A stretch of DNA of 48,388 nt, taken from contig JABLXV010000055.1 of the NCBI GenBank assembly GCA_013177895.1, positions 1 through 48,388 on the forward strand, written 5' to 3'. The notes beneath the pieces were generated by a model. It worked only from the letters and a program-made list of their open reading frames with translations. It was not told the DNA's origin and made no database searches. Position numbers and translations under genes: made by a program. The stretch is from Brevinematales bacterium (GTDB lineage: Bacteria; Spirochaetota; Brevinematia; Brevinematales; GWF1-51-8). This document shows positions 15,936 to 20,948 of the stretch, one piece after another (position 1 is the first letter of the stretch; each line of letters opens with the position of its first letter).

Positions 15936-16304
15936 CTATTGCGCTAATTTCTCGATCACCTTAAAGATATCGATTTTCGAATCGAATCCCTTGAATACCT
16001 GGTACTCTTTCACCCTTTTTTCCATCGAGTAATATTGCTCTCGGAAAATCCCCATATCCTCTTTGGAGAGGCTGTCGATATATTTTTTATAGACTTCGTT
16101 TAATTCCTGCATCCGCGCGTAAATAGTCTTCGCCTGATCGCGGTAGTCCATGTCGGGATTGAGGCGGATATCGTACAGGAGGTCGACTATCTGCCGCAGG
16201 AGCTGTTCCGATTCGTCGATAGTACTATACCATTCGGGACGGACTTCCGTATTGCACGCCGCGAACACGAGCGCGAAAAGGATTAACGGTGAAATCAGCC
16301 TCAT
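15936..16304 (-). CDS. Small lipoprotein, 122 aa
   Basis: The signal peptide ends in the lipobox VFAAC with Cys17, so this is probably an envelope lipoprotein. The rest is predicted mostly helical and charged and matches no family I know. Its ATG overlaps the stop of the AAA ATPase gene (ATGA), suggesting coupled translation. purF starts 13 bases after the stop. Confidence 0.7.
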   Translation of the reverse strand: MRLISPLILFALVFAACNTEVRPEWYSTIDESEQLLRQIVDLLYDIRLNPDMDYRDQAKTIYARMQELNEVYKKYIDSLSKEDMGIFREQYYSMEKRVKEYQVFKGFDSKIDIFKVIEKLAQ

Positions 16305-18343
16305 GACGAGAACCCCACTTTATTTTTCAATCCGCCGATACGCGAGGTAAGTTCCTGCTTGATGGCTTCCATAAAATCCTGCTGGGTGACGACACGGCTG
16401 CCCTCGTCGCGGAGAGCGGCCTTTCGCGCGGCGTTATAGACCACGTTGGCGATTGATCCGCCCGCCAGTTCGGTCTCGGCGAGCTTTTTCAGGTCGACGT
16501 CCTCCGCGAGCGGGAGTTTGTTCGATATATGCACCTCCCAGAGCTTGAGCCGTGTTTCCATTGTGGGGATATCGAACTTGATTTTTATATTGAAGCGGCG
16601 GTTCCATGCCGTATCGAAAATATCGATCAGGTTGGTAGTCGCGATGAATACTCCGTCGAAATTCTCCAATTCCTCGAGAAGGATGTTCTGCATCTGGTTG
16701 TATTCCTTATCGGCGGCCTGCATCACCGCGCCGCGCGCGGAAAGAAGCTGGTCGGCCTCGTTGAAGAACATAAATACTTTCTTGGTGGACTGCTGGGCGT
16801 AACGGTAAAATTCCTTGAATATCTTTTTTACATTTTTAGCGCTTTCCCCCACCCATGAGGTGACCATATTCGACGCATCCACTTTGAAAAGCTCGGCTCC
16901 GGCCTCGCCCGCGAGCGCCTCCGACGTGATCGTTTTACCCGTGCCGGACGTCCCGTAAAGGAGTATCTTAATCGAACTGTAGGATGTGGAGGAGAGGGAC
17001 GGTTTGATGCCCCATTCGCGCATCGTCTCGATCGTGCGGGTCATATCGACCGCGCCCATCAGGTTCTTCTTAACATCCTCGTCGAGTATCACGCTATTTA
17101 ACGTTACCTGCGGGGTATAAATTTCGTAGAGGCCGCGGAAACGGTTCTTATCGGTATTGCGTTCGCCGTCCGCCAACGAGTTGGAGGCTTCGGCCTTATT
17201 TTTTATCTTATCTTTTTCCGCCTTCACGTCGGCGAAAATCATTTTATAGATGCGTTCGCGGGAAATGCTGATCGTGCTCATCTCGAACGAAATCTCGTCA
17301 TACAAGTCCTGGTCGACCATGTCGTCGAATTCGTCCAAATCCTCTTCCTCGATCAGCGAATTGGTCTCGAAGAAGTCGTTCGCCTCGATCAAACCTTCGT
17401 TGACGAATACGCTGTCCTTCAGGAAGAAACGGAGTATGGTTTTAGTATGCGAGGGCGAGAAGGACAGGAGGGATAGTATCTCCTCGATGCTGTTGAATTT
17501 CGTTTCCTTCTGGATAATGACGCGGTAGATCAGGTAGATCAGGAAGAAAAATTCGAGACTGGTCAGTTTACGCGCTTTCAGGAAGTCCGCCAATTCCATG
17601 GATAGTTTTGATGAGACGATCTTTTTCCTGAATGCCTTGAGCGATTGGGCGAAGTCGCCGTCGTCGTAAATATTCGAATCGGGGGATACGCCCCATGAAT
17701 AAACGTTATGAAAGAACCCCGAGATGAAAAAGTGATACTTGATAATCTCATTCAGGTCGTTCAGCATCCCGTCGACATTCGCGTAACGCCCGGAGCTCAT
17801 ATTGAGTGTGGGGAACCCGTAACCGTTACCCCCGCCGATCTCGTGAAATATCTTCGTAAACGCGATGGGGGAAAGGAATATCCGCTTGATATTGTAAAGG
17901 TTCGCCATATGGATGAGAGGCAGCGTCTGCTGGGAAAAATCGTTCTCCTCGGAAAAAACAATTTTTTTCGAGAGGAGCTGGTGTGAGGGGTCGAGGACGG
18001 TCTGTACGAATTCGAGACATTTTACCGGCGAGCGGTGAAAAAAGTTCGCAACCTGCCATATCAGGAGGCCGTTTTTTTCCAGCAGGCTGATGCCCAGGAG
18101 AAGCAGAACGAGCTTCTTTTCCTCGTAGGACAGTTTTATAGAGAACGGAAAAAAGTCGCGAACCGACCGGACAATCATCGAGACAGGATGCTGGGTAACA
18201 GAAAAAACGCGTTTTATGGAAATCTTATTCCGCTTGTTCCGAAGTTTCAGGTCATGCGAGCCGATAAAACGCTGGAATTTCTGCGCGAGCAGTATCGCGT
18301 AATCGATCAGTATCAGTTTTTCGCGGGAACGGTCTTTTGCCAT
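16301..18343 (-). CDS. AAA ATPase with a long unrecognised N-terminal region, 680 aa
   Basis: The C-terminal third is an AAA+ ATPase. Walker A is GTSGTGKT (about residues 464-471) and Walker B is FMFFNEAD (about 524-531), with Asn in place of the usual first Asp. The downstream ATTNLIDIFDTAWNRRF fits the second region of homology. About 400 N-terminal residues show acidic and hydrophobic tracts but no known domain. The ATG at 18343 is preferred; a longer frame reaches 18421 but would add an unlikely hydrophobic tail. The ATPase probably remodels a protein partner. The following lipoprotein gene overlaps by four bases. The target is unknown. Confidence 0.75.
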   Translation of the reverse strand: MAKDRSREKLILIDYAILLAQKFQRFIGSHDLKLRNKRNKISIKRVFSVTQHPVSMIVRSVRDFFPFSIKLSYEEKKLVLLLLGISLLEKNGLLIWQVANFFHRSPVKCLEFVQTVLDPSHQLLSKKIVFSEENDFSQQTLPLIHMANLYNIKRIFLSPIAFTKIFHEIGGGNGYGFPTLNMSSGRYANVDGMLNDLNEIIKYHFFISGFFHNVYSWGVSPDSNIYDDGDFAQSLKAFRKKIVSSKLSMELADFLKARKLTSLEFFFLIYLIYRVIIQKETKFNSIEEILSLLSFSPSHTKTILRFFLKDSVFVNEGLIEANDFFETNSLIEEEDLDEFDDMVDQDLYDEISFEMSTISISRERIYKMIFADVKAEKDKIKNKAEASNSLADGERNTDKNRFRGLYEIYTPQVTLNSVILDEDVKKNLMGAVDMTRTIETMREWGIKPSLSSTSYSSIKILLYGTSGTGKTITSEALAGEAGAELFKVDASNMVTSWVGESAKNVKKIFKEFYRYAQQSTKKVFMFFNEADQLLSARGAVMQAADKEYNQMQNILLEELENFDGVFIATTNLIDIFDTAWNRRFNIKIKFDIPTMETRLKLWEVHISNKLPLAEDVDLKKLAETELAGGSIANVVYNAARKAALRDEGSRVVTQQDFMEAIKQELTSRIGGLKNKVGFSS

Positions 18344-18374
18344 AGTAACCCCAAGGATACATGAATAGTTAATA

Positions 18375-18403
18375 ATTATAATATAAAACGGGAAAAAAAA
18401 CCA
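18375..18403 (-). promoter_or_regulatory. Weak candidate promoter for the AAA ATPase operon
   Basis: TGGTTT, 17 bases, TATAAT on the minus strand. The -10 box is perfect but the -35 box is poor. It overlaps a short T-run and weak hairpin (18393-18412) that may also end the XpaC-like transcript. Confidence 0.35.
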
Positions 18404-18430
18404 GTATCCGGGATATATCAAAAGGAAATT

Positions 18431-19219
18431 CTATTTATAACCGTCCATTTTTATTTCGTTTTCGAGCACTTTAATCTCAGTATTGAGGTCCATCAGGTCG
18501 TCCTCCTTCAGCCGGAAGAAGAGATTCGAGAACGCATCCCTGATCGTATCCATCGTGGCCTCAGCCTTCCCGATACCGGTATTGATGGTGGGGGATTTTA
18601 CCGCATATCCCGCGAGCTCGTTATACTTCTTGAGAATTTTTATCGTGGCGTCGAGGTAATAATCGGTAAAACGTTTCGCGGTCTTCAGCGACGCGGGGCG
18701 TTCGATAAAAACGTCCATAATATTCTCGATAGTCTCGGTAATTTCGGAAACCTTAGTTTTTATATCGGGCTTCACGATTTTCTTGCGAAGCTCGTGAATC
18801 TCCGAAAGCCGTTCCTCGCAGCGCAGGATAACCGTTTTTAACTGCCCGTCGGGGAGATTCTTACTGCGAAGGTATCCCGAGGGATACCTCGGCTCTGAAT
18901 GGTCGGCTTTAACCGGCTCGACCGGTGGCGGCGGCGGAGCGGAGCCGACGGGTTCGGGAGGTTCCGCGGGTGTGACGATGACCGCATCGCGATAAACGGG
19001 AGTATTACTTTCAGCGGCCGAGTTATTCCATGCGCCTCCCCATTTCTGTTTCCATTCCTGTTTCTGGTTTCTCCATTTTTCCTTCCAGCCGGATTTCCAG
19101 TCAGGACTATTCTCCGTATTCGATTTAGATTTCCGCGAAATCGCGTTAAAAATGGAACCGAATATTTTTATAAATATTGTAGAAAAAACAAAAAAAATGA
19201 TAGCTCTGATAAACCCCAT
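18431..19219 (-). CDS. XpaC-like membrane-anchored protein, 262 aa
   Basis: Probable member of the XpaC family (annotated from a Bacillus gene linked to indolyl phosphate hydrolysis). The N-terminus has one membrane segment, IRAIIFFVFSTIFIKIFGSIF. A Trp/Lys-rich stretch with WKSGWKEKW follows, then a proline-rich linker with PPPPPVEPV. The C-terminal half is helical and ends DLNTEIKVLENEIKMDG, close to the XpaC signature. The start at 19219 is chosen because GGGAG lies just upstream. A frame extending to 19255 lacks this site. XpaC usually accompanies TelA (toxic anion resistance), which is not seen here. Confidence 0.65.
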   Translation of the reverse strand: MGFIRAIIFFVFSTIFIKIFGSIFNAISRKSKSNTENSPDWKSGWKEKWRNQKQEWKQKWGGAWNNSAAESNTPVYRDAVIVTPAEPPEPVGSAPPPPPVEPVKADHSEPRYPSGYLRSKNLPDGQLKTVILRCEERLSEIHELRKKIVKPDIKTKVSEITETIENIMDVFIERPASLKTAKRFTDYYLDATIKILKKYNELAGYAVKSPTINTGIGKAEATMDTIRDAFSNLFFRLKEDDLMDLNTEIKVLENEIKMDGYK

Positions 19220-19283: not shown

Positions 19284-19312
19284 ATTATACCTTTAGTCGA
19301 TTATTTCTTCAG
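19284..19312 (-). promoter_or_regulatory. Candidate promoter for the XpaC-like gene
   Basis: TATAAT on the minus strand (19284-19289) with CTGAAG 17 bases upstream. The -35 match is weak. The leader down to 19219 is AT-rich with TATATATATTATATT. Confidence 0.35.
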
Positions 19313-19598
19313 GGGAGGGTAGGGAAGGCGGAACCGGCAAAGAGGCGGGAGTTTCGAGGTTCTCGGGGTTAGTGATATCCTTTGGAACAGGCAAATCCGC
19401 GGGGACGGGGAGGGATTGGGGGTTTTTAAGCGATTCGGGGATTTTCATGGATGGAGGATTATCCAAATCCCGCGGCGTGGGCATTCTTTCCGGGATACTC
19501 ATTTTACCGGGATTTGGTAACGAGTCGGGTATCGAAAGAGATTCCGGCATCTTTAACGGTTCGGGATTATTCAGGGGCAATACTTTTATTCCACCCAT
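19293..19598 (-). CDS. Proline-rich hexapeptide-repeat protein, 101 aa
   Basis: The whole protein after an 11-residue N-terminus is 15 uninterrupted hexapeptides of the form P-x-x-[LMI]-x-x, coded by 19296-19565. Examples are PESLSI and PADLPV. Exact spacing with no insertion in 90 residues is unusual. The repeats are acidic to neutral and end at the C-terminus. No signal peptide is visible. The ATG at 19598 is chosen for the GGAG six bases upstream; in-frame Met codons at 19610 and 19631 lack one. It lies between the XpaC-like and endonuclease-family lipoprotein genes. Its function is unknown. Confidence 0.65.
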   Translation of the reverse strand: MGGIKVLPLNNPEPLKMPESLSIPDSLPNPGKMSIPERMPTPRDLDNPPSMKIPESLKNPQSLPVPADLPVPKDITNPENLETPASLPVPPSLPSPEEIID

Positions 19599-19616
19599 AT
19601 TTTTCTCCATCATATT

Positions 19617-19645
19617 AATATGACACTGCATGAGAAAAATATCAA
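19617..19645 (-). promoter_or_regulatory. Candidate promoter for the hexapeptide-repeat gene
   Basis: TTGATA, 17 bases, CATATT on the minus strand. The predicted start of transcription near 19610 leaves GGAG and the ATG at 19598 in the leader and favours that start. Confidence 0.4.
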
Positions 19646-19659
19646 GAAAGCGCGCGAGG

Positions 19660-20829
19660 TTAATATTTTAATGTGATTACTACAGGGTAATGGTCGGACG
19701 GACTGGGCGACGGGTGGGGGATGTTTACCGAATTCGAAACATAGTAGGGAAATAGAGCAGGGGAAAGCAGGATATGGTCTAACCGGCTGGAAAAAGTCGA
19801 GATTGTCCATGCGTCGGGAGGCAGAAATGTCGCGTTAATCGGTATGAAGTCGTTAGAGGGATTCGCGGGATTATCATTCTGGAACGAAAGGATTTCGACG
19901 GTTTGCCCGCTATCGAAGTCCTCGGTTAATGCGGTATTCATATCCCCCAGAATGACAATCTGATCGGTATAAATATTCTGGACAGCTAAAATAGTATCCT
20001 GTATGATTTGCGCCTGGGTACGGCGTTTCTGGAGATTTAAAAAAAGTGGATCCAAATCGAACTCAGCCTTCAAATGGGCGGCATAAAACCATACCGGGTA
20101 ACTTCCGAGAACATTGATCCTGAATTTAAAAACAGGTCTCAGGTATGAAAGTGAGATATTTGTCCCCGAGAGAGGGTCGGTATAAACCGGATAAACGATA
20201 TCAGAAGCGTCGTAGACAGGCCATTTACTCCATACCGCGATGTAATCGCTGGGAAAACCGTACTGAATAGTGTAACCATGATAGGGCAGGGAAACCCCGT
20301 TTGATGTAAGAGCGGAGTCTAACAATGCCGCATCTTCAGGTTGAATTTCCTCCAATACAATAATATCAACGTTCGCGGATTTTATCCATTTTGCCAAATA
20401 GTCATGACTATCCGCGATTAACAGATCGGCAATATTATAGGTAGCGATAATCACTTCCGAATTATTTCGAACTAATTTGATCGATAGGGTGTTAGTCTGA
20501 TGAGATTTTATAGAAATATTGGTGGTATAACTGGAATAATGGGGCGCGGAGAAAGTTATCTCCCAATCCCCGGGAAGGGATGATGCCAAATTAAAATTTC
20601 CTGTTTCATCGGAAAAAACGGTATTGCCGGAGGAAATATCCACTCGTGCACCGACAATAAAGGTATGATTTGAAATATCGGAGATATATCCTCGTACCGT
20701 ACCGAATAAAGAATTTGTAGTCTGGGAGGAAGGACCGAAGTAAATCAGTTCACTGGGGGAACAAGAGACAAAAAGCATGAAAAGCGCAAGAAATACGGGT
20801 GAATAAATGCTTCTTCTTCTCATACGCAT
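19660..20829 (-). CDS. Secreted endonuclease/exonuclease/phosphatase-family lipoprotein, 389 aa
   Basis: Metal-dependent phosphodiesterase fold. After the lipobox LFVSC a beta-sandwich resembling carboxypeptidase regulatory domains occupies about residues 40-115. The catalytic domain follows with ATYNI, IVLEEIQ, ILGDMNTA and the final SDHYPVVI, which hold the expected Asn, Glu, Asp and His. It is likely anchored in the envelope and acts outside the cytoplasm, on nucleic acid or phospho-compounds. The ATG at 20829 (or 20823) is just four bases after a tRNA terminator. No ribosome site is evident. Upstream in-frame codons lie inside the tRNA gene. Confidence 0.8.
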   Translation of the reverse strand: MRMRRRSIYSPVFLALFMLFVSCSPSELIYFGPSSQTTNSLFGTVRGYISDISNHTFIVGARVDISSGNTVFSDETGNFNLASSLPGDWEITFSAPHYSSYTTNISIKSHQTNTLSIKLVRNNSEVIIATYNIADLLIADSHDYLAKWIKSANVDIIVLEEIQPEDAALLDSALTSNGVSLPYHGYTIQYGFPSDYIAVWSKWPVYDASDIVYPVYTDPLSGTNISLSYLRPVFKFRINVLGSYPVWFYAAHLKAEFDLDPLFLNLQKRRTQAQIIQDTILAVQNIYTDQIVILGDMNTALTEDFDSGQTVEILSFQNDNPANPSNDFIPINATFLPPDAWTISTFSSRLDHILLSPALFPYYVSNSVNIPHPSPSPSDHYPVVITLKY

Positions 20830-20860: not shown

Positions 20861-20948
20861 CGGAAAGGGCGGGATTCGAACCCGCGGTACCCTTCTGGGG
20901 CACACACGCCTTCCAAGCGTGCTCTTTCGACCACTCAGACACCTTTCC
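20861..20948 (-). tRNA. tRNA-Ser (anticodon GGA)
   Basis: An 88-base cloverleaf on the minus strand with a seven-pair acceptor stem GGAAAGG/CCTTTCC and discriminator G. The anticodon loop is TTGGAAG, giving anticodon GGA, which reads UCC and UCU. The T arm contains GGTTCGAATCC. The long variable arm is as expected for serine tRNA. CCA is not encoded. Its own promoter and terminator make it a single-gene unit. Confidence 0.97.

Follow-up and report, generated by a model that had tools for sequence, protein, structure and literature searches.

The polyproline II (PPII) helix has three residues per turn. Among PPII ligands and proline-rich tandem-repeat proteins (substrates of SH3, WW, GYF and EVH1 domains and of profilin), a regular proline spacing is combined with an extended chain, an exposed proline/aliphatic edge and multiple copies of the repeat. 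In bacteria, leucine-rich repeats (LRR) of the YopM/IpaH type carry a variable segment, xxLPxLPxx, that forms PPII and a beta-turn (PMC5976695); their units have at least 20 residues and include an LxxLxLxxNxL strand segment. A period of six residues is found in the hexapeptide left-handed beta-helix of acyltransferases, whose signature is [LIV]-[GAED]-x2-[STAV]-x. An apparent P-x-x-L-x-x pattern in 5 to 17 copies is also produced by recent DNA tandem repeats of period 18, such as those encoding Priestia WP_243495890.1 and those of spirochaete arrays.

The protein described here is encoded in the window (the whole 48,388-nucleotide stretch of Brevinematales DNA that was analyzed) and consists mainly of P-x-x-[LMI]-x-x hexads. 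It would share with PPII ligands the proline spacing, extended chain, exposed edge and multiple copies, but it is bacterial, its hexads are perfect and fixed in number and phase, no cognate domain was found and it has no sequence relative. Short spacing of P and L is shared with the YopM/IpaH-type LRR; however, the period of the hexad protein is six, the strand segment is lacking and there is no Pfam LRR match. The period is that of the left-handed beta-helix, in which 15 hexads would equal five three-sided coils, but by composition at each position the hexads depart from the beta-helix signature (no Pfam or NCBIfam match), because proline has a fixed position and acidic residues stand where small inward residues are needed. 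What is new is the sequence and the strictness of its pattern, whereas the broad kind, proline-rich repeat proteins, is already known.

Hexad gene and upstream signals

The original prediction of a protein made almost wholly of such hexads is borne out by translation, with 90 of 101 residues in an unbroken period-six pattern. Its coordinates also stood, although it gave no strand, and the open reading frame (ORF) lies on the minus strand (Table 1). All 15 hexads match P-x-x-[LMI]-x-x exactly, from the first unit, PEPLKM, to the last, PEEIID, which is followed by the stop codon; there is no interruption, and P or L/M/I recurs at each third residue for 90 residues. Position 2 is commonly E or D and position 6 commonly N, T or S, and there are 0 to 3 glycines. 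The codon bias of the gene is weak, which says little in a gene so short and proline-rich.

The exact 26-base core of the promoter-like element ahead of the gene occurs once in the genome. The hexad, XpaC-like and ATPase genes each have their own conserved promoter-like stretch. A T-rich, promoter-like stretch (TGGTTTTTTTT...TTATAAT, 18344-18440, minus strand) lies ahead of the ATPase gene and is conserved in four genomes.

Table 1. Features of the hexad locus, in window coordinates
Feature	Coordinates	Strand	Basis or remark
Hexad-repeat protein gene	19293..19598	minus	ATG 19598, stop 19293, 101 aa; translation, orthologues in four genomes, purifying selection in frame
Tandem array of 15 P-x-x-[LMI]-x-x hexads (residues 12-101)	19296..19565	minus	P and L/M/I at all readable positions, four genomes
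11-residue N-terminal leader MGGIKVLPLNN	19566..19598	minus	alignment: alike in three genomes, MKLEPVEI instead in the most divergent
Shine-Dalgarno-like GGAG, 6 bases ahead of ATG	19605..19608	minus	sequence; likewise in G001 and G003
Promoter-like TTGATA-17-CATATT with extended -10 TG	19617..19645	minus	conserved in four genomes, -10 weaker in G002
XpaC-like membrane protein (PF10112, E 2.9e-19), candidate partner	18431..19219	minus	family search and low-confidence model
AAA+ ATPase	16301..18343	minus	also conserved in genera of the order that lack the hexad protein

Conservation and selection

Orthologues were found in the same synteny in all four genomes of the genus examined (the window's own and three others, G001, G002 and G003), and all conservation statements on the hexad protein rest on these four. 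The G001 locus was also retrieved by name from Spirochaetes bacterium GWF1_49_6. Gene order was the same throughout: phosphodiesterase-like gene, hexad gene, XpaC-like gene, AAA+ ATPase, small lipoprotein-like protein and purF. Identity to the window's hexad protein was 81% in G001, 59% in G003 and, over the full alignment, 33% in G002. Variation of repeat number among relatives had been proposed as a check; the number was constant, with 15 hexads in each orthologue (in G001 only if a 10-N run inside hexads 12-13 has the right length) and zero internal indels in any pair.

Substitutions between the closest pair (window and G001) were predominantly synonymous in the hexad frame (dN, 0.092; dS, 0.558; ratio, ∼0.165), and none of the five other frames on both strands showed a comparable ratio. 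The antisense ORF at 19372-19623 (83 aa), which overlaps the hexad gene, was unsupported by the substitution pattern. Absence of conservation in relatives and equal rates of synonymous and nonsynonymous change had both been named as grounds for doubting the gene; instead, the protein is conserved in four of four genomes of the genus and its dN/dS ratio is well below 1. Because there are syntenic orthologues in four genomes, selection in one frame only, and a conserved Shine-Dalgarno site and promoter-like element, we conclude that the hexad gene is real. It is under purifying selection and keeps both its pattern and its count.

Across the four genomes, every readable position 1 was proline (59 of 59) and every readable position 4 was L, M or I (60 of 60). 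Between the window and G002, residue identity compared hexad by hexad at positions 2, 3, 4 and 6 was not above that of shuffled pairing, and at position 5 it was 0.20 versus 0.08 shuffled, a nonsignificant difference (P = 0.11). Little besides the pattern and the length is thus retained at the widest divergence. The hexad protein is the fastest changing of the five proteins compared in this genome pair, at 33% identity versus 48% for the XpaC-like protein, 48% for the phosphodiesterase, 62% for the lipoprotein-like protein and 70% for the ATPase. In the same genome pairs, the XpaC-like neighbor, which has a Pro-rich linker, showed 2 to 6 indels, and the N-terminal part of the alignment places several of these within its Trp-rich region and linker. 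Judged by these alignments, the hexad array behaves as a length-constrained protein, unlike the XpaC linker. Fixed length alone is, however, no proof of a rod, because a 122-aa neighbor is likewise without indels in the same pairs.

Restriction to one genus and exclusion of a repeat artifact

No family with this exact repeat had been recognized originally, and this held in all databases and genomes searched: the hexad protein had no family match in Pfam, NCBIfam, PHROGs, PADLOC or PDB sequences. A profile of the four orthologues run against 393 genomes of the phylum matched in 21 other genomes. Profile matches with at least five exact hexads had DNA units 85 to 100% identical, some in stop-containing frames or on the wrong strand, and the weaker matches outside the genus were without exact phase. 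A ten-hexad DNA pattern searched in the same 393 genomes recovered the four genus members and seven others, the latter being near-identical repeats as judged by eye. Viral contigs, plasmids and phages yielded no true relative among those searched, and the best plasmid match by E value was a near-identical repeat in Priestia (unit identity, 0.89). The protein was absent from nine of nine other genomes of the order, and no paralogue with at least five hexads was found in the same genome. A scan of 84,980 species returned only GWF1_49_6, using exact short peptides that may miss divergent relatives. Within the genomes searched, these results suggest that the hexad protein is so far restricted to one genus.

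Chance does not explain the hexad run: 20,000 shuffles of its residues produced at most 4 hexads in a row, versus 15 observed, and the next longest run within the window, in any frame, was 3. A recent DNA tandem repeat is likewise ruled out by the constant copy number, by dN/dS, by Tandem Repeats Finder (TRF), which reported no tandem array at the hexad gene, and by low unit identity. The 18-base units of the window gene have a mean identity of 44% (0.42 to 0.46 across the four orthologues, versus 0.85 to 1.00 in the look-alike DNA repeats), and several of the look-alikes lie in antisense or alternative frames.

Neighboring genes and a candidate partner

The neighbors had been described as an XpaC-like membrane protein and a secreted phosphodiesterase, which proved about right: the former is a PF10112 (XpaC-like) protein and the latter an endonuclease/exonuclease/phosphatase-family protein with a lipoprotein-like N terminus. 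A tRNA gene (20861-20948, minus strand) lies directly upstream of the phosphodiesterase-like gene. The true start of the latter is probably near 20826, because its longest ORF (to 20934) runs into the tRNA.

In a low-confidence model, the XpaC-like neighbor has an N-terminal membrane helix, a helix rich in Trp (W at 40, 44, 48, 55, 59 and 63), a disordered linker and a C-terminal helical domain. The predicted Trp-rich helix (19028-19099, minus strand; orthologues L118, L077 and L078) stands beside the membrane segment, with its tryptophans spaced by 4 and 7. In G001 it has an extra 11-residue unit, so that its length changes and its helical spacing is kept. Neither of its two paralogues shows such a Trp series in the window genome or in G003 (the third paralogue in G002 was not counted, as its frame is possibly wrong). 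An XpaC-TelA operon at the hexad locus was rejected: the TelA-like gene, which we take to be TelA from its sequence, adjoins a different XpaC paralogue. In three genomes a lipoprotein-like protein of ∼1,900 residues (L080, 1913-8906; also L082 and L084) lies beside the gene read as TelA and an XpaC paralogue. Beside the third XpaC paralogue, two genes (L079, 9390-10014; L081, 8830-9499) presumably form a pair resembling MNT nucleotidyltransferase/HEPN toxin-antitoxin systems.

The hexad gene and the XpaC-like gene at this locus were both present in four of four genomes of the genus and in none of the nine other genomes of the order. A link between the hexad protein and the AAA+ ATPase is weakened by the occurrence of the latter in other genera without the hexad protein. 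The XpaC-like protein is consequently the better partner candidate, since it and the hexad gene are both genus limited and the ATPase is not. A function shared by the hexad and XpaC-like proteins is nonetheless weakly supported, because their co-occurrence represents one phylogenetic event, the surrounding 18 kb is syntenic and the promoter-like stretches are separate. The ATPase itself (orthologues L113 to L117) has some 400 N-terminal residues without a Pfam match and a C-terminal part resembling FtsH/CdvC/IetA ATPases.

Possible conformation and role

AlphaFold, run on a two-sequence alignment, returned a low-confidence model of the hexad protein (pLDDT 67, pTM 0.16). In it, several prolines are followed by short helical turns and there is no PPII rod; a fold search with this model against the PDB gave no match. 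The model is uninformative, neither supporting nor excluding a rod. By inspection, the leader (MGGIKVLPLNN or MKLEPVEI) goes straight into the hexads, and neither a signal peptide nor a membrane segment can be seen. This lack of a visible signal peptide makes the adhesion role suggested originally unlikely; no hydrophobic stretch was seen by inspection either. The fixed length and the three-residue spacing of Pro and aliphatic residues are in keeping with the accompanying suggestion of an extended rod, spacer or scaffold, to which AlphaFold added no structure.

Our preferred reading, held tentatively as quite possible though short of probable, is that the protein is a cytosolic, proline-rich strip of fixed length, probably PPII-like, that would bind or assemble through a single proline/aliphatic edge. 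In sequence, the spacing of the hexads is compatible with the three residues per turn of PPII. We infer the conformation, partner and role as follows. A PPII-like helix would bring the 15 prolines onto one edge together with the 15 aliphatic side chains, giving a rod of up to about 28 nm with its polar positions toward the solvent. Repeated partner copies, or a second strip of this kind, may bind along that edge, and the fixed count of 15 could determine how far the strip spans or how many partners it takes. The best candidate partner would be the XpaC-like membrane protein, whose gene adjoins the hexad gene and shares its phyletic limits; docking of its tryptophans on the prolines of the strip is an idea only. 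That the hexad count serves as a molecular ruler, making this a new architecture (a single-chain PPII rod with one proline/aliphatic edge, defined by pattern rather than sequence and possibly docking on the Trp-rich juxtamembrane helix of the XpaC-like neighbor), we regard as speculative and improbable.

The protein might alternatively be a disordered docking array, each P-x-x-[LMI] acting as an independent short linear motif for one domain with no fixed structure between motifs. In each hexad, as in a linear motif, constraint is limited to just two of the six positions, AlphaFold confidence is low throughout, and multivalent proline tracts bound by SH3, WW and GYF domains are known, mainly from eukaryotes (PMC8409303). 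However, neither phase nor count has changed even where synonymous divergence is saturated, whereas flexible arrays usually vary in copy number and linker length, and no SH3, WW, GYF or EVH1 domain, or other cognate, was found in the neighboring proteins searched. We therefore consider a docking array unlikely, though still a serious alternative. More doubtful is a compact solenoid or spiral, in which every hexad would make one turn, either a beta-turn or a helical one (x-P-[ED]-x-[LMI]), and the turns would stack as a superhelix with buried aliphatics. The short modeled turns after several prolines, the lack of indels, and N/T/S at position 6 followed by E/D at position 2 (the usual start of a helix or turn) fit such a fold, but the model has a pTM of 0.16 and no fold match, there is little or no conservation beyond positions 1 and 4, and the pattern is unlike the signature of the left-handed beta-helix. 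There is a slim chance that many copies associate laterally through the proline/aliphatic edge to make a bundle or filament, without a separate partner; a hydrophobic edge that is continuous, with the polar positions left free, would suit this, yet the PPII bundles already known are described as rich in glycine (PMC8409303), unlike this protein, and there is no direct evidence for assembly. Finally, that the frame is nonfunctional, left behind by a DNA repeat or open only as a by-product of the other strand, to which the overlapping 83-aa ORF and the weak codon bias could be taken to point, is almost certainly wrong, given a dN/dS of 0.165 in the hexad frame only, a frame kept without indels in four genomes, conserved Shine-Dalgarno and promoter-like elements and no DNA repeat.

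Implications

The breadth of these findings is limited to one small gene in four genomes. In the hexad protein the repeat number and two positions per hexad are strictly kept and the rest is in near-random drift, which makes it a clean test object for the minimal sequence need of a repeat protein, and for selected length in a polyproline-type rod. If binding to the XpaC-like neighbor is true, the hexad protein would offer a first handle on the poorly understood XpaC membrane family.
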